Shown here: positions 218-62,704 of the stretch, in pieces | How positions within the stretch are numbered: position 1 is the stretch's first letter | How the letters are laid out: every line of letters starts with the position of its first letter | Source: Leisingera aquimarina DSM 24565 | Lineage (GTDB): Bacteria > Pseudomonadota > Alphaproteobacteria > Rhodobacterales > Rhodobacteraceae | Assembly: GCF_000473165.1 (NCBI RefSeq) | Contig: NZ_KI421504.1 | Span: 1,873,437 to 1,937,436 of the forward strand | Reading direction: 5' to 3' | Length of the DNA: 64,000 nucleotides | Translations under genes and position numbers: made by a program | The notes under the pieces: generated by a model | Database searches by the model: none | What the model saw: only the letters and a program-made list of their open reading frames with translations | What the model was told of the DNA's origin: nothing

Positions 218-313
218 CGGCAGGCTCCCGCCCCTGAAGGCGCTACCAGAGGAAGCGCGTTACAGCGTTGGGCACAGCGCCGCGCGATGCGCGGCGCGGG
301 CCGGGAGCTGCCG
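218..313. repeat. Dispersed multi-hairpin element, copy F (short form)
   Basis: The terminal inverted repeats are CGGCAGGCTCCCGCCC at the left and GGGCCGGGAGCTGCCG at the right. The left half carries the block CAGCGTTGGGC that is shared with copy C at 55001. An internal hairpin has arms GCGCCGCGC and GCGCGGCGC around a GAT loop. The conserved GCCCAACGG block and the third hairpin of the full copies are missing, so this looks like an internally deleted member. It lies in the 3' flank of the GNAT gene. Confidence 0.6.
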
Positions 314-1030: not shown

Positions 1031-1062
1031 GCCTTCTGCAAACGGGGCTGCACCACACAAAC

Positions 1063-1129
1063 GCCCCGCCAGAGGCGGGGCGCCGGGCTCAACGGGATGA
1101 GGCCTGTCAGGGCCGAAGACGGGCGGGAG
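1063..1129. repeat. Dispersed multi-hairpin element, copy E (3' half) and terminator-like stem
   Basis: A perfect 8-bp hairpin (1063-1081: GCCCCGCC, AGA, GGCGGGGC) is followed by GGGCTCAACGGGATG, a small GGCC/GGCC stem and ACGGGCGGGAG. The second part aligns with the 3' half of copies A-C (GCCCAACGGGAG...ACGGGCGGGAG). The 5' half with CTCCCGC and TTGGGC is absent. It lies between convergent genes. Read on the minus strand the stem is followed by GTTTGTG, so it may also terminate mscS. Confidence 0.5.
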
Positions 1130-11310: not shown

Positions 11311-11376
11311 GGCTTCTTTCTGGTCCGAAATACCCCGGGGTGAATTGGCCGTGAGGCCAAGAGGGGCAGCGCCCCT
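11311..11376 (-). repeat. Dispersed repeat family 2 (GTATTT...CCAGAAAGAAG), copy 1
   Basis: Read on the minus strand: GGGGCGCTGCCCC hairpin, CTTGGCC/GGCCAA hairpin, TCACCCCGGGGTATTT, then ACCAGAAAGAAGCC. The same order of hairpin, hairpin, CACCCC, GTATTT and CCAGAAAGAAGCC recurs on the plus strand at 62491-62553. It lies in the 3' flank of the RNase T2 gene. Confidence 0.7.
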
Positions 11377-29190: not shown

Positions 29191-29219
29191 ACTTTTATCT
29201 TCAAATGCCGATGTGATCA

Positions 29220-29290
29220 GCCGTTTTCCTACGAGGAAAACGGCCAGGAAAAATCGATTTTTCCTGGCCGGAATTCGCGCCGAATTCCGG
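29220..29290. repeat. Three tandem perfect palindromes between ffs and pheA
   Basis: Hairpin 1: GCCGTTTTCCT, ACG, AGGAAAACGGC (29220-29244). Hairpin 2: a 28-nt perfect palindrome centred on ATCGAT (29242-29269; arms GGCCAGGAAAAATC). Hairpin 3: CCGGAATTCG, CGC, CGAATTCCGG (29268-29290). Neighbours share bases, so only alternate helices can form fully. They separate a plus-strand RNA gene from the minus-strand pheA. Confidence 0.75.
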
Positions 29291-29306
29291 CGCCTTTCAG
29301 AACCGC

Positions 29307-37115: not shown

Positions 37116-37255
37116 TACTCTGGCAGACTTTGCTGCATCTATGCGCGCGCAGCCTGCGCAACGCCCATAAGTTGCGGCAGCAGGTTTGACCAAATGTTTC
37201 GCGCGCGAAACATTGCGGCAGAAATGCTGACCTATCTGACGCACCCCGGAACAGG

Positions 37256-37402
37256 CGGAAATCTCCCGCGCCCGCAGGCCCGCCCGGCTGATGCCGGACG
37301 GGCCTTGGCGGCCTTGGGCCAGGCTCAGCGCCAACGGCGCTGAGCCTGGCCCAACGGGAGCGCCGCGCCTTGGCGCTGCAGCGACGGGCGGGAGAATTTC
37401 CG
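37256..37402. repeat. Dispersed multi-hairpin element, copy A (full length)
   Basis: The ends are CGGAAATCTCCCGC and GGGCGGGAGAATTTCCG. Arm 1: GGCCCG/CGGGCC (37277-37304) with an inner CCGGC/GCCGG. Arm 2: a perfect 19-bp stem beginning TTGGGCCAGG (37314-37332) and ending CCTGGCCCAA (37336-37354), loop AAC. Arm 3: AGCGCC/GGCGCT (37359-37377). It lies between convergent yejF and hemN and could end transcription from both sides. Confidence 0.75.
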
Positions 37403-41926: not shown

Positions 41927-42064
41927 GGCGCTCTCCCGCGCCAGCGCGTGCCCGGCTGGGCCGGACCCGCTGGCAGACTTGGGCGTGGCACCGCAAAGCG
42001 GTGCCACGCCCAACGGGAGGATGCCCTTCTGCAAGAAGGGTGGACGACGGGCGGGAGCGGCGCC
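41927..42064. repeat. Dispersed multi-hairpin element, copy B (full length)
   Basis: The ends are GGCGCTCTCCCGC and GCGGGAGCGGCGCC. Arm 1: CCGGC/GCCGG (41952-41964). Arm 2: a perfect 16-bp stem, TTGGGCGTGGCACCGC (41979-41994), loop AAA, and its complement (41998-42013). Arm 3: CCCTTCT, GCA, AGAAGGG (42024-42040). It is the only full copy not between convergent genes: both neighbours read plus. Confidence 0.75.
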
Positions 42065-42088
42065 GGTTTGCAATGCTCGCCGTCAGGT

Positions 42089-42130
42089 CCCGCGGGGCTT
42101 GCGGGTGACCCCGCGGGGCTTGCGGGTGAC
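42089..42130. repeat. Two copies of a 21-nt tandem repeat
   Basis: CCCGCGGGGCTTGCGGGTGA recurs with a 21-nt period (42089-42108 and 42110-42129), followed by a broken third start. It lies 50 nt upstream of the GlsB-like gene. Confidence 0.6.
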
Positions 42131-52597: not shown

Positions 52598-54775
52598 ATG
52601 ACTGCCCAGCTCCGCCCTTCGCTTGCGGCTTGCCCGGCCTGTGTCGCAGCCCCGCATGACAGCGCTGAACAGGCCCCGACAGAGGCACGGCTGGCGCTGT
52701 CCTTGCCGGGCATTCACTGCCAGGCCTGTATTTCAGCGGTGGAGCGCGAGCTGAGCGCACATCCCGGCATTCATTCCGCACGGGTCAATCTGACACTTAA
52801 GCGGGCGTTGATCGAGGCGGAGCCGGATTTGCGCGCTGCCGATCTGATCCCGGTGCTGGAAAGCATTGGCTACGAGGCGCACGAACTGGATCTGGCAGCG
52901 CTGGCTGCCACCCAGAACGACAAGGCGGGACGCGATCTCTTGATGCGGCTGGCGGTGGCTTTCTTTGCCTCCATGAATGTGATGCTGCTGTCGGTTTCCG
53001 TCTGGTCCGGGGCATCGGATGCGACACGGGACATGTTCCACTGGATTTCTGCCGCGATCACCTTCCCCGCGATCATCTTTGCGGCACAGCCGTTTTTTGC
53101 CAATGCCTGGACGGCGTTGCGGGTCGGGCGCCTGAACATGGATGTGCCGATTGTGCTGGCGCTTGTGTTGGCGCTGGCCACCTCGCTATGGGAGACCTCG
53201 CTGTCGGGTGAGCACGCCTATTTTGATGCCGCGCTGACGCTGACCTTTTTCCTGCTGGCAGGCCGTTATCTGGACTACCGCACCCGCGCTGTGGCGCGTT
53301 CCGCCGCCGAGGAGCTGGCCGCACTGGAGGTGCCTCGCGCGATCCGGTTGCTGGACGGGGATGAGTACGAAGTGCCGGTGGCGGATCTGGCGATTGGCGA
53401 CCTGATCCTTGTGCGCCCCGGCGGACGGATGCCGGTGGACGGCGAGATTATTGAGGGGCGGTCGGAACTGGACCGGTCGCTGCTGACCGGCGAGACGCTG
53501 CCGGTGTTTGCGGAACCCGGCCTGGCGGTGTCAGCCGGCGAAGTGAACCTGACCGGCCCGCTCACCATCCGGGCGACTGCGGTGGGGGAGGATACCTCGC
53601 TGCACCGGATGACCGATCTGGTCGCCATCGCCGAATCCGGCCGCTCCCGCTACACCTCGCTGGCAGACAGCGCTGCCAAGCTTTATGCGCCCGGCGTTCA
53701 TATCTTGTCGGCTCTCGCATTCGCGGGCTGGTATCTTTACACTTTCGACCTCCGCATGGCGCTGAACATCGCCGCGGCGGTGTTGATCATCACCTGTCCC
53801 TGCGCGCTGGGCCTTGCGGTGCCTGCGGTGACCACCGCGGCCTCAGGCAGGCTGTTCAAACGCGGTATGCTGATCAAACATGCCACTGCGCTGGAGCGTC
53901 TGGCGGAGGTCGATACCGTGGTGTTCGACAAAACCGGCACGCTGACTGCCGGCGCGCCGCAGGTGACCAACCTGGGGGATCATGCCCGGGGCGATTTGGA
54001 GATTGCACTGGCGCTGGCCGAAGGGTCTTCGCATCCGTTGTCAGTGGCGCTGACACGCGCCGCGCGCACAGCCGGGGTCAAACCGGCCGGCGTGCAGGAC
54101 ATCACCGAGGTGCCGGGTTATGGCGCAGAAGGACTGTTCCGCGGCCAGCGGGTGCGGCTGGGACGTGCAGCCTGGGTCGGCGCCGAGCAGGACAGCCAGA
54201 CAGCCGCTTGGCTGGACAGCGGGTCGGGGGAGGCGCAGGCGTTCCTGTTCACCGATGCCTTGCGTCCCGGTGCTGCGGAAGCGGTGCAGGCGCTGAAGGA
54301 CGCAGGCAAGGATGTGCTGTTGATCTCCGGCGACAGCACTGGCGCGGTGGAGGATCTGGCCGGACGGCTGGGCATCGCCAAGTGGGTGGCCGAGGCGCTG
54401 CCAGCGGACAAATCCGCCCGGGTGCAGATGCTGACGGAGCAAGGCAAAAAGGTTCTGATGGTCGGTGATGGCCTCAATGACACAGCGGCGCTGGCAGCGG
54501 CGCATGTGTCAATCTCACCAGCCTCGGCGCTGGATGCCGCGCGGGTGGCCTCGGATATCGTGCTGCTGGGGCAAGATCTTTCCCCGATTGCAGAGGCCTG
54601 TGCCGTGGCGCAGAAGGCAACCCGCCGGATCCGCGAAAACTTCCGCATTGCCACGCTGTACAACGTGATCGCGGTGCCCCTGGCGATAGCCGGGCTGGCG
54701 ACGCCCTTGATTGCGGCGCTGGCGATGTCTACCTCTTCCATCACAGTCTCCCTCAACGCGCTGCGGCTGCGATAA
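52598..54775 (+). CDS. ccoI: Copper-translocating P-type ATPase CcoI/FixI
   Basis: A 725-aa P1B-type ATPase supplying copper for the CcoN CuB centre. An N-terminal Cys pair (CPACVAAP) and HMA domain with GIHCQAC (~43-49) precede eight helices. The transport motif CPCALG, the TGE loop (LLTGETLP), the phosphorylation site DKTGTLT, SHPLS, and the hinge GDGLND are all intact. The start at 52598, 5 nt after ccoH, is preferred to the longer frame from 52514. Confidence 0.96.
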   Translation: MTAQLRPSLAACPACVAAPHDSAEQAPTEARLALSLPGIHCQACISAVERELSAHPGIHSARVNLTLKRALIEAEPDLRAADLIPVLESIGYEAHELDLAALAATQNDKAGRDLLMRLAVAFFASMNVMLLSVSVWSGASDATRDMFHWISAAITFPAIIFAAQPFFANAWTALRVGRLNMDVPIVLALVLALATSLWETSLSGEHAYFDAALTLTFFLLAGRYLDYRTRAVARSAAEELAALEVPRAIRLLDGDEYEVPVADLAIGDLILVRPGGRMPVDGEIIEGRSELDRSLLTGETLPVFAEPGLAVSAGEVNLTGPLTIRATAVGEDTSLHRMTDLVAIAESGRSRYTSLADSAAKLYAPGVHILSALAFAGWYLYTFDLRMALNIAAAVLIITCPCALGLAVPAVTTAASGRLFKRGMLIKHATALERLAEVDTVVFDKTGTLTAGAPQVTNLGDHARGDLEIALALAEGSSHPLSVALTRAARTAGVKPAGVQDITEVPGYGAEGLFRGQRVRLGRAAWVGAEQDSQTAAWLDSGSGEAQAFLFTDALRPGAAEAVQALKDAGKDVLLISGDSTGAVEDLAGRLGIAKWVAEALPADKSARVQMLTEQGKKVLMVGDGLNDTAALAAAHVSISPASALDAARVASDIVLLGQDLSPIAEACAVAQKATRRIRENFRIATLYNVIAVPLAIAGLATPLIAALAMSTSSITVSLNALRLR

Positions 54776-54805
54776 GCCGGCGCCAGCCACACCGGACCTG
54801 AAGCC

Positions 54806-54964
54806 ATGAGTGTCCTTGCCTATCTGATCCCGATTTCACTGATCCTCGGCTCGGTCGGACTGGCGGCGTTTTTCTATACGCTGCGCAGCAACCAGTACGA
54901 CGACCCGGAAGGCGATTCCCGCCGGATCCTGAGCGATGAGTGGGACGACAAGCCCAAGCCGTGA
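54806..54964 (+). CDS. ccoS: cbb3 oxidase maturation protein CcoS
   Basis: A 52-aa protein: one helix (VLAYLIPISLILGSVGLAAF) then the family's FYTLRSNQYDDPEGDSRRIL and a charged end DEWDDKPKP. CcoS is needed to insert haem and copper into CcoN. Closes the ccoGHIS operon, 30 nt after ccoI. Confidence 0.95.
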   Translation: MSVLAYLIPISLILGSVGLAAFFYTLRSNQYDDPEGDSRRILSDEWDDKPKP

Positions 54965-55000
54965 TGCGGGCGGCCTGCGCCTGTGTGAAAATGCCTATCC

Positions 55001-55132
55001 CTCCCGCCCCTGCAGTTGCCCTGGCTGGCGCCAGAGCCCCTTGGCAGCGTTGGGCGTGGCACCGCGCAAAGCGCGGTGCCACGCCCAACGGAAGGAAGTC
55101 TTTTCGCAGAAAAGGCTGACGACGGGCGGGAG
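55001..55132. repeat. Dispersed multi-hairpin element, copy C (full length)
   Basis: The ends are CTCCCGCCC (55001-55009) and GGGCGGGAG (55124-55132). Arm 1: CTGGC/GCCAG (55021-55034). Arm 2: a perfect 18-bp stem, TTGGGCGTGGCACCGCGC (55050-55067), loop AAA, complement (55071-55088). Arm 3: CTTTTC, GCA, GAAAAG (55100-55114). It lies between convergent ccoS and the DD-carboxypeptidase gene. Confidence 0.75.
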
Positions 55133-55140
55133 CGTTTGAT

Positions 55141-55172
55141 CGGGTCCTGGCCGGGTCCTGGCCGGGTCCTGG
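55141..55172. repeat. Three copies of an 11-nt tandem repeat
   Basis: CGGGTCCTGGC repeats at 55141, 55152 and 55163 (the last one base short), directly after element copy C. A likely site of replication slippage. Confidence 0.7.
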
Positions 55173-55183
55173 AGGCGGTCATG

Positions 55184-55206
55184 AAAAAGGCGCCGCTGGG
55201 GCGCCT
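55184..55206 (-). terminator. Terminator of the DD-carboxypeptidase gene
   Basis: Minus strand AGGCGCC, CCAGC, GGCGCCT followed by TTTT. Confidence 0.8.
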
Positions 55207-55233
55207 CTTGTTCTGGTTCGGAAAACACTTGGC

Positions 55234-56850
55234 TCAGGATGGGCCGATCGGCTTGCAGGTCACGTTGCGGGCGTTCAGGCGGCGGCAGGCCAGTTCCGCC
55301 TGATCTTGGCTCATACCGAGGAAATTGGCTTCGAACCCGCGCCGGGTCTTGGCCACCTTGCGCAAGGAGCCGTCCAGCGTTTCCAGCTCAGACAAGGCCG
55401 TGCGCAACAGAACCTTTTCGGCCTGGTAACGGCTGGTGTAGAGGCCGACATTGACTCCCCAATAACGCCCGCCGGAAGTGGAAAGCCGGGTCACAACCAC
55501 TGGTTCCGGTTCGGGTGAAGCGTTTGCAAGGGCCAGGCTGGCCGGGCGGGCAACGGGCCGCAGGCCGGTGAAGGGCACCTTTTGCACTGCAGCGATGACC
55601 GTGGCTGTTGCGGTCTGTGCTGCCGGCGCGGGTTCCGCCTCGGCTTCGGCGAGGGCGACGGCTATGCTGTTGCGGATGGCATCCCCCCGCAGCGCACCTT
55701 CGGCACTGACGGACTGGACATTTTCGATCTGCTCCGCTGGCGGTGCGGTTTGTGCAGTGTCCTCAACAGCTTCGGCGGGCGGTGTCTGCAGTGCTTCCTC
55801 AAGTGCGGCCACCAGCACCGGCGACTCGCTGCGGCCGGGGCGCGTTTTGGGCCGCAGGCTGGTGTTCACCTGGCCGCTGACCCGGATGGTCTTGCCGGCA
55901 GCACCTGCGCTGCCGCCGCTGTCCCCGGCGTCCGCTATCACGACGCCGGCGCCTTGGTACGCGGGCCGGCGCGGTTTGCGCAGGGCGGCACGCGAAGGGG
56001 CGCGGCGGAAGCCGAGATCCAGCAGTTCCGCCACCTTGGCATTGCGTGCGGTAGAGGATTTTCCGCCGAACACCGTGGCGATGATGCGTTCATTGCCGCG
56101 CTTGGCCGAGGCCACCAGGTTGGAGCCTGCAGCACGGGTATAGCCGGTCTTGATGCCGTCGGCGCCGCGGTAACTGGCCAGCAGGCGGCGGTTGGTGTTG
56201 GGCACTTCGCGCACGCCGGCATGGGTCGTGCGGCGAGAGAACAGGTTGTAGTATTCCGGGTAGTCATAGAGCAGATGGCGGCCCAGGGTGGTCATATCGC
56301 GCGCCGTCGACAGATGCCCGCTGGCCGTCAGGCCATGGGCATTCTTGAAGGTTGTGCGGCTCATCCCCAGTGCTTTGGCGGTGCGGTTCATCCGCCGGGC
56401 AAAGGCAGCCTCGGAGCCAGACAGCGTCTCGCCGATGGCGGTGGCCGCGTCATTGGCGGATTTTACAGCTGCGGCTCGGATCAGGTAGCGAAAAGCAATC
56501 CGCTGGCCGGAGCGCAGCCCCAGTTTCGAGGGCGGCTCGGCAGCAGCATTGCGGCTGATCTTGACCTTGGTCTCAAGCGAGATTTCTCCGTTCCGCACCG
56601 CCTCAAATGCGATGTAGAGGGTCATCATCTTGGTCAGGGAGGCCGGGTGCAGCCGGGTGTCGGCATTGCGCGAATGCAGTACCTCGCCGGTGCGGGAATC
56701 GATGACCATCGCAGCATAGGGCGCCGCAGCGGCCCGGTGCGGCTGGAGCGCCAGCACAATTGCTGCGATAAGAAATACCGCGGCTGCCCTCAGGAACCGG
56801 GTACAAGAATCCCGGCCTGACGCCGGATTGACCTGCGTGATCACTGCCAT
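55234..56850 (-). CDS. D-alanyl-D-alanine carboxypeptidase with C-terminal SPOR domain
   Basis: A 538-aa periplasmic enzyme that trims D-Ala from peptidoglycan stem peptides. Signal peptide ~1-43. The penicillin-binding motifs are SxxK in PASLTKMM, SxN in VKSANDA, and KTG in GIKTGYTRA. A long Ala/Pro/Glu-rich linker (~290-450) leads to a SPOR domain (~455-535; RYWGVNVGLYTSRYQAE), which binds denuded glycan and targets the septum. That suggests a role in division. Confidence 0.94.
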   Translation of the reverse strand: MAVITQVNPASGRDSCTRFLRAAAVFLIAAIVLALQPHRAAAAPYAAMVIDSRTGEVLHSRNADTRLHPASLTKMMTLYIAFEAVRNGEISLETKVKISRNAAAEPPSKLGLRSGQRIAFRYLIRAAAVKSANDAATAIGETLSGSEAAFARRMNRTAKALGMSRTTFKNAHGLTASGHLSTARDMTTLGRHLLYDYPEYYNLFSRRTTHAGVREVPNTNRRLLASYRGADGIKTGYTRAAGSNLVASAKRGNERIIATVFGGKSSTARNAKVAELLDLGFRRAPSRAALRKPRRPAYQGAGVVIADAGDSGGSAGAAGKTIRVSGQVNTSLRPKTRPGRSESPVLVAALEEALQTPPAEAVEDTAQTAPPAEQIENVQSVSAEGALRGDAIRNSIAVALAEAEAEPAPAAQTATATVIAAVQKVPFTGLRPVARPASLALANASPEPEPVVVTRLSTSGGRYWGVNVGLYTSRYQAEKVLLRTALSELETLDGSLRKVAKTRRGFEANFLGMSQDQAELACRRLNARNVTCKPIGPS

Positions 56851-62477: not shown

Positions 62478-62490
62478 AGCAGGAAGGAAT

Positions 62491-62553
62491 GGGGCTTCGC
62501 CCCCTCGCGCCTTGGGCGCTCACCCCCAGAGTATTTGAAACCAGAAAGAAGCC
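62491..62553 (+). repeat. Dispersed repeat family 2, copy 2
   Basis: GGGGCTTCGCCCC, a GCGCC/GGCGC hairpin, CACCCCCAGAGTATTT, then ACCAGAAAGAAGCC. Same architecture as the minus-strand copy at 11311-11376. It lies 13 nt past the GH25 stop. Confidence 0.7.
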
Positions 62554-62704
62554 TGCTTCTTCTGGCTGCAAATATCTACCGTGTTGCTTCGGTCAATACC
62601 TTGCACACCTTGAGCCTGGGCAAGGAGCGTGAAGACCTCAGATATCGGAACGCTCTTTGTCCAGGTGATTTCTGTAGAGCTGTCGTTCGTCTCTTGCACG
62701 GAGA

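Follow-up and report, generated by a model that had tools for sequence, protein, structure and literature searches.

The 64,000-nucleotide stretch of Leisingera aquimarina DSM 24565 DNA analysed here (the window) holds three copies, A, B and C, of an extragenic sequence whose long hairpin arms differ from copy to copy and are each self-complementary. What kind of element is this, and what might it do for the genes beside it? The first-pass annotation described one architecture for the three copies, and all three match that description. It also gave each a perfect second arm (arm 2) of 19, 16 and 18 bp, which agrees with the coordinates of the pairing strands (37314-37332/37336-37354 in A, 41979-41994/41998-42013 in B and, counted from TTGGGC, 55050-55067/55071-55088 in C); the stem of C reaches 20 bp. 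Compared with shuffles, folding of the copies gave z-scores of -8.0 (A), -6.8 (B) and -9.3 (C). The limits first drawn around C can be kept: BLAST pieces at other loci start mostly near query position 900-902 and stop near 1033-1035 of a query spanning window 54100-56200, which corresponds to 55001 to about 55132. Those drawn around A and B were too wide and took in copy-specific flanks that lengthen the closing stem.

Two features were absent from that earlier description: the single-unit forms, copies D and E, and the inverted-repeat relation between the halves of the longer copies. A, B and C each consist of two units head to head, the 5' half being an inverted copy of the 3' half. Read on the opposite strand, the 5' half of the dimer starts GCCCAA and ends GGGAG as the M unit does, and the long arm 2 forms the junction. 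The element constitutes a new REP/BIME-like family of extragenic palindromic repeats, present as single units or head-to-head dimers behind stop codons, an assignment that is well supported by the comparisons below.

Table 1 Copies of the element, their cores and a neighbouring hairpin, in window coordinates; scores are those of the covariance model.
Feature	Position	Strand	Details
Copy A, head-to-head dimer: inverted unit and M unit joined by a 19-bp arm 2	37263-37394	+	M unit 37307-37394; 70.3 bits
Copy B, dimer, 16-bp arm 2	41933-42057	+	M unit 41972-42057; 68.4 bits
Copy C, dimer, 18-20-bp arm 2	55001-55132	+	M unit 55043-55132 (+), 78.2 bits; inverted unit 55001-55095 (-), 45.9 bits
Copy D, single unit	225-312	-	47.5 bits; M end 15 bp from the stop of a called + gene ending at 209
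Copy E, single unit	1045-1129	+	54.4 bits; M end 4 bp from the end of a called - gene, 1134-1940
Core of copy A	37349-37394	+	Box 1 GCCCAACGG from 37349, variable hairpin, box 2 CGGGCGGGAG at 37385-37394
Core of copy B	42008-42057	+	Box 1 from 42008; box 2 at 42048-42057
Core of copy C	55083-55132	+	Box 1 from 55083; box 2 at 55123-55132
A-tract/T-tract hairpin adjoining copy C, separate, terminator-like by eye	55183-55209		Strand not assigned; persists in orthologs with the element lost or reduced

Copies compared genome-wide define the M unit as a palindromic hairpin (hp1), GCCCAAC[N]G (box 1), a hairpin of variable sequence (hp2) and C[N]GGCGGGAG (box 2). Its structure can be written as CCC-AA-C[N]G ... 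variable hairpin ... C[N]G-GC-GGG-AG, with a second hairpin before it and a pyrimidine-rich, A-poor stretch after it. The core measures about 40-55 nt, to which the second hairpin is added. When units are anchored on their boxes, with no structure fitting, the CCC/GGG foot is nearly invariant, an internal AA/GC loop (a mismatch) is retained in 80 of 87 units and an AG tail at the foot is present in 85 of 87. Hand-anchoring left 86 units from 91 matches, five having been dropped (two without box 1, two duplicates and one short). Among these, the pair next inward from the AA/GC loop is C-G in 78, G-C in 5, T-A in 1 and broken in 2; the centre position is G.G in 43 and otherwise paired, with 34 Watson-Crick and 2 wobble pairs; the third pair is standard in 84 and of four types, C-G accounting for 12. 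From about the third to the ninth base after GGGAG, pyrimidines abound and A is scarce, both in this genome and in two relatives. For the third to eighth bases in this genome, A occupies 22 of 534 positions, against 193 of 890 further on (89 of the 91 matches used), and from this A-poor stretch the conserved unit may be longer than our covariance model. A CCCGC-type motif downstream of GGGAG is scarcely above shuffles (44 versus 35.5 of 123).

The divergent arms had originally been read as compensatory change, and the alignments support that reading. Across 93 distinct rows of a model-fitted alignment, which is by construction fitted to its own structure, 368 double-change cells stand against 112.8 ± 10.3 in shuffled controls, and the structure score is 0.468 against 0.130, with slid partners reaching at most 0.081. 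Orthologs of copy C (12 sequences) show double changes at six pairs, compared with 3.1 after shuffling, and a structure score of 0.080 (shuffled 0.049; slid at most 0.046). Covariation thus exceeds both the shuffled and the slid controls, except for further pair types at site C, which are not above control (15 versus 14.0 shuffled). Arm 2 is nearly invariant among the site C orthologs, with one compensated pair.

Template switching that perfects quasi-palindromes could produce covariation without selection, and correction of this kind would be expected to leave arms that are perfect over a great length but variable in sequence, as seen here. This mutational explanation is already disfavoured, and we consider it extremely improbable. 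The retained AA/GC mismatch argues against pure palindrome-correcting mutation, which should have removed it; half of the units keep a central G.G between two covarying pairs; and at site C the flanks diverge while the element does not.

The family is large and extends well beyond the window. With a covariance model built from 29 sequences, the genome gave at least 91 matches at E ≤ 0.01, forming at least 82 sites; 150 of 8138 candidates were scored, so that both counts are lower bounds. The 4.25-Mb main contig carries 88 of the 91 matches and 79 of the 82 sites (binomial p 1.2e-5 under even spread), a distribution that is chromosomal rather than plasmid. The pattern ACGGGCGGGAG has 33 matches in the genome, not all of them elements, compared with 11 for the reversed pattern, and a pattern of the boxes only finds 1272 units in 21 genomes of the genus, compared with 4 when reversed. 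All 21 genus genomes carry the element, with 25-94 matches each at E ≤ 1e-4. Beyond the genus, matches at E ≤ 1e-5 occur in at least 16 of 159 genomes of a family sample with one genome per genus (15 of 158 other genera, plus the window's own genome), a lower bound given strict filters and 27 candidates scored per genome. The further copies in relatives on which the original proposal depended are therefore abundant.

At the level of single loci, the radical-SAM protein beside copy A, which we take to be HemN, has its nearest named relatives in Leisingera (82-85% identity). Ten of 80 named loci of its gene have matches at E ≤ 0.01: seven of the eight from Leisingera and one each from Tritonibacter, Phaeobacter and an unclassified member of the Rhodobacteraceae. 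Among plasmid records, copy C is matched only by two from Parasedimentitalea, at the same convergent gene pair. At E ≤ 1e-3, copy C matched no phage record, and phage carriage was rejected on this basis. The strand counts in the two halves of the main contig are 26-/22+ and 24-/16+; with the origin not located, there is no clear replichore pattern, and a replication-strand signal was likewise rejected.

The position of the element relative to genes is strongly skewed. By gene calls from a home-made finder, which make the contexts approximate, the 82 sites of this genome comprise 48 convergent, 17 tandem-opposite, 15 tandem-same and 1 divergent site, and the remaining site overlaps a called gene. 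For background, gaps of 100 bp or more were drawn from the window (its own element sites included) and seven 20-kb stretches; of these 84, 16 are convergent, 42 tandem and 26 divergent. Two further species (G001 and G002; 124 units listed, the 116 loci fetched giving 123) show 72 convergent, 24 tandem-opposite, 21 tandem-same and 4 divergent units, 1 at a locus end and 1 overlapping. Within this genome the distance from the M end to the facing stop has a median of 23 bp and is at most 40 bp in 53 of 66 stop-facing sites, a set made up of all convergent and tandem-opposite sites and the one overlapping a gene call, so that facing a stop follows from the class. For convergent units of the two further species, the M end is the end nearer to a gene in 64 of 72 cases (p 6e-12). 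REPs show the same gene-end placement according to Di Nocera et al. (PMC3733652).

Dimers, called by a loose motif match, account for 36 of the 72 convergent units in the two further species, and 6 of these 36 receive a negative distance. Measured over all but 6 of the 123 units (those that are divergent, at a locus end or overlapping), the outer end of the dimer has a median distance of 25 bp to the stop of the other gene in convergent gaps, and of 28 bp to a stop in tandem-same gaps. The outer ends of tandem-opposite dimers lie at a median of 93 bp from the start of the facing gene. Of the single units in tandem gaps, 12 face the upstream stop and 5 do not, a difference that is not significant (p 0.14). 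A crude scan upstream of the units in the M direction showed no promoter-like excess, and an independent sRNA gene with its own promoter was rejected on these grounds.

One strand of the element is distinguished from the other. In hp2 of the 123 units found with the boxes-only pattern, which leaves the arms free, G.T outnumbers A.C 48 to 8 on the M strand (p 2e-6 against composition-matched shuffles, which give 56% G.T). Split by context, the counts are 25:5 for convergent units, 4:1 for tandem-same units and 18:2 (p 0.001) for tandem-opposite units, whose M strand runs antisense to the genes on either side. The set from the window's own genome, which is model-selected and may be biased, gives 35:6 overall and 3:2 for its tandem-opposite subset. 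There is no such bias in hp1 (G.T:A.C 21:27). Because the G.T excess in hp2 follows the M strand irrespective of how the genes are oriented, one strand of hp2 seems to be important in single-stranded form, as either RNA or DNA. This signature separates RNA or single-stranded DNA action from action as duplex DNA.

For E. coli REPs, a role as a 3' structure of the sense mRNA has been proposed, either as a block to decay or in end trimming, and E. coli BIMEs have been described as DNA-level sites for gyrase, a nucleoid protein or cruciform formation. A sense-mRNA structure of the gene faced by the M end would suit the position of that end about 20 bp behind the stop codon and the very stable hairpins, which mostly lack a U-tract. 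However, a G.T pair on the M strand reads as an A.C mismatch in the mRNA of the facing gene, so that the bias runs the wrong way, as in the tandem-opposite units. The G.T excess where the M strand is antisense argues against the facing gene's sense mRNA as the favoured molecule; 3' mRNA protection, one of the roles first suggested, is hard to reconcile with this bias, and we regard it as improbable. A DNA-level site between convergent genes would account for the convergent placement and for the chromosomal rather than plasmid location. Yet a duplex predicts neither the one-strand wobble bias nor freely varying arms, and the replichore pattern is not clear, making such a site very unlikely.

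Termination, another suggested role, is not generally supported. For 59 stop-facing units, a U-tract terminator is predicted inside the unit in 12, after it in 10, before it in 3 and not at all in 34. The resulting share of 25 of 59 is similar to the 40 of 110 counted at background gene ends. A general intrinsic terminator was rejected, as there is no general U-tract; a minority of units may act as intrinsic terminators, judging from these predictions.

Orthologous sites give a view of the element's history. At site C, the ten orthologs with an intact element have a median identity to the window copy of 0.88, higher than the 0.83 of the last 200 coding bases; the 5' flank is at random level (0.44 versus 0.40 shuffled) and the 3' flank, including the terminator-like hairpin, reaches 0.57 versus 0.48 shuffled, with the locus L249, which has an insertion beside the element, omitted from the comparison. 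Between species, the resident element at site C has changed far less than its flanks. Recombination between copies could be behind part of this conservation. At site A, the element is intact in four of eight Leisingera loci (L060-L063), with its own arm-2 sequence, and reduced or nearly gone in the other four; such locus-specific arms argue against homogenisation between loci. Of 19 readable genomes, site C is intact in 12 (L241-L246 and L248-L253, the window's own included) and reduced or gone in 7 (L247, L254 and L256-L260), where the neighbouring A/T-tract hairpin stays. Behind the same gene as copy A, Tritonibacter (L067) and Phaeobacter (L133) have a single unit in the opposite direction.

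Clean empty sites were not encountered at A or C, where most loci lacking a copy keep remnants, or at the ffs site near 29.2 kb of the window. At the latter, five of seven compared relatives (L056, L058, L061, L062 and L063) have an M unit, and the window has stacked palindromes beside the SRP RNA gene instead (29195-29300). An insertion of about 1.3 kb in genome G017 (about 193-1500 of L249) ends a few bases outside the copy-C ortholog; by eye, we take it to be IS3-like.

The first-pass annotation knew of no named family that fits. This holds for Rfam and for the papers searched (subscription journals being thinly covered), but the placement and the dimer habit match REP/BIME. Searches of Rfam with the whole window and with copies A and C gave no match at the gathering score, only sub-threshold ones, many to miRNA hairpin models, and a known Rfam family was rejected. 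The element belongs to the broad REP/BIME kind in consisting of many dispersed intergenic palindromes, often in inverted pairs, and in lying between convergent or tandem genes near 3' ends. According to Di Nocera et al. (PMC3733652), REPs/BIMEs are dispersed extragenic palindromes with head-to-head dimers and structured spacers, close behind the stops of convergent or tandem genes, and the dispersed palindromes, the dimers and the gaps near stops are common to both. In contrast, the arms of our element are variable, its boxes conserved and its loop AA/GC, and its core with second hairpin compares with a REP length of 20-40 bp in the same paper (PMC3733652).

GTAG REPs are regarded as mobilised by RAYTs. 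Our element has no GTAG tag; it has instead the AG foot tail and the boxes GCCCAAC/GGCGGGAG. Of 15 genomes that bear the element, 9 had no match to Y1_Tnp (PF01797) at E ≤ 0.001. Three Y1 transposases, which by eye we take to be IS200-like, match in the window's own genome, and the 3.4 kb surrounding them yielded no element. A RAYT-mobilised REP was rejected for these reasons together. CGTC REPs, as described by Di Nocera et al. (2013, PMC3733652), resemble the element in being mostly alphaproteobacterial, often dimeric, without a dedicated transposase and placed at gene ends. Their stems are 8-9 bp long and begin with A-T pairs, their loops have 4-5 nt and their tail is mostly CCA (PMC3733652), whereas the element has a CCC/GGG foot, an AA/GC loop and an AG tail. 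Since foot, loop and tail all differ in this comparison by description, membership of the CGTC REPs was rejected. CGTC does occur on the complementary strand of some copies, where it is internal and variable.

Integron attC sites end in RYYYAAC and GTTRRRY. Box 1 (GCCCAAC) fits the first of these, and the element shares with attC the conservation of structure over sequence and a preferred strand. Its other end is GGCGGGA, not GTTRRRY, and its copies are dispersed singles and dimers. An attC identity was rejected on the 3' end, GGCGGGAG, and on the absence of an integron integrase over the cut-off in 12 genomes.

A non-autonomous mobile element had also been suggested; such an origin is plausible, but a mobilising enzyme was not found. 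The fuller form of this idea is a REP-type element whose M-strand hairpin is copied as single-stranded DNA by a putative enzyme, with most copies old residents and any function secondary. It draws on copies that are scattered but share their ends (pieces of 73-89% identity lie at unrelated loci), on the patchy distribution among sampled genera, on head-to-head dimers, which known REPs also form (PMC3733652), and on the G.T excess on one strand independent of gene direction. Against it are the lack of Y1_Tnp matches in most element-bearing genomes and of elements near the three in this one, the remnants in place of clean empty sites at A and C and the greater conservation of a resident copy than of its flanks. 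With regard to a MITE, which would combine terminal inverted repeats and a target duplication with a parent IS, the dimer ends, CTCCCGC/GCGGGAG, are inverted, and no target duplication was seen by eye at A, B or C. Mobility of this kind is possible as the principal explanation, albeit on balance unlikely.

Our preferred reading, to which we assign a probability of roughly 40%, is that the element is a single-stranded M-strand hairpin, most likely RNA, at gene 3' boundaries. In its favour stand the covarying structure, the conservation of the element at site C, the placement close to facing stops and the one-strand wobble bias of hp2. The M-strand hairpin would work single-stranded where transcription nears the 3' end of an adjacent gene. 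Each unit would define or shield the 3' end of an incoming M-strand transcript and so keep it from running antisense into that gene; a dimer would do so in both directions. A more specific proposal, which we consider doubtful, is that hairpins acting on one strand and recognised by shape end or block antisense transcripts about 20 nt before the stop, with dimers insulating convergent pairs and with no need for a U-tract or a known REP transposase.

Several findings count against a boundary role. Any M-strand transcript at tandem-opposite sites is necessarily antisense, no promoter excess lies upstream of the units, and 34 of the 59 stop-facing units have no predicted U-tract terminator nearby. 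The element is dispensable, as its reduction or loss in 7 of the 19 site C genomes indicates, and the own-genome tandem-opposite wobble count is just 3:2. The facing of upstream stops by single tandem units and the distance of tandem-opposite dimers from gene starts also speak against it. The wobble bias itself would fit a single-stranded DNA hairpin too. A boundary element is probably the most likely function, with the mobile single-stranded DNA hairpin as its main rival; the two are not exclusive, as one could account for origin and the other for retention. This family opens the role of REP-like repeats at gene ends to testing in culturable marine bacteria: it offers 21 species that share it, a resident copy conserved against random flanks and natural deletions at the same locus.

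Other repeats were noted as well. Short tandem repeats adjoin copies C (55140-55172, GGGTCCTGGCC-type) and B (42088-42130, CCCGCGGGGCTTGCGGGTGAC-type). A second palindromic repeat, TGTTTCGCGCGCGAAACA, with TCAGCA/TGCTGA arms nearby, is present at window 37197-37235 and upstream of the copies in L011, where it has a one-base variant, and L017; it recurs near some copies and at site A orthologs. Another dispersed repeat, of the GAGTATTT...ACCAGAAAGAA type, is found at window 11319-11376, near 62490-62560 and beside units in L001 and L038, and six relatives have a sequence resembling window 11319-11376 in their ffs gap.
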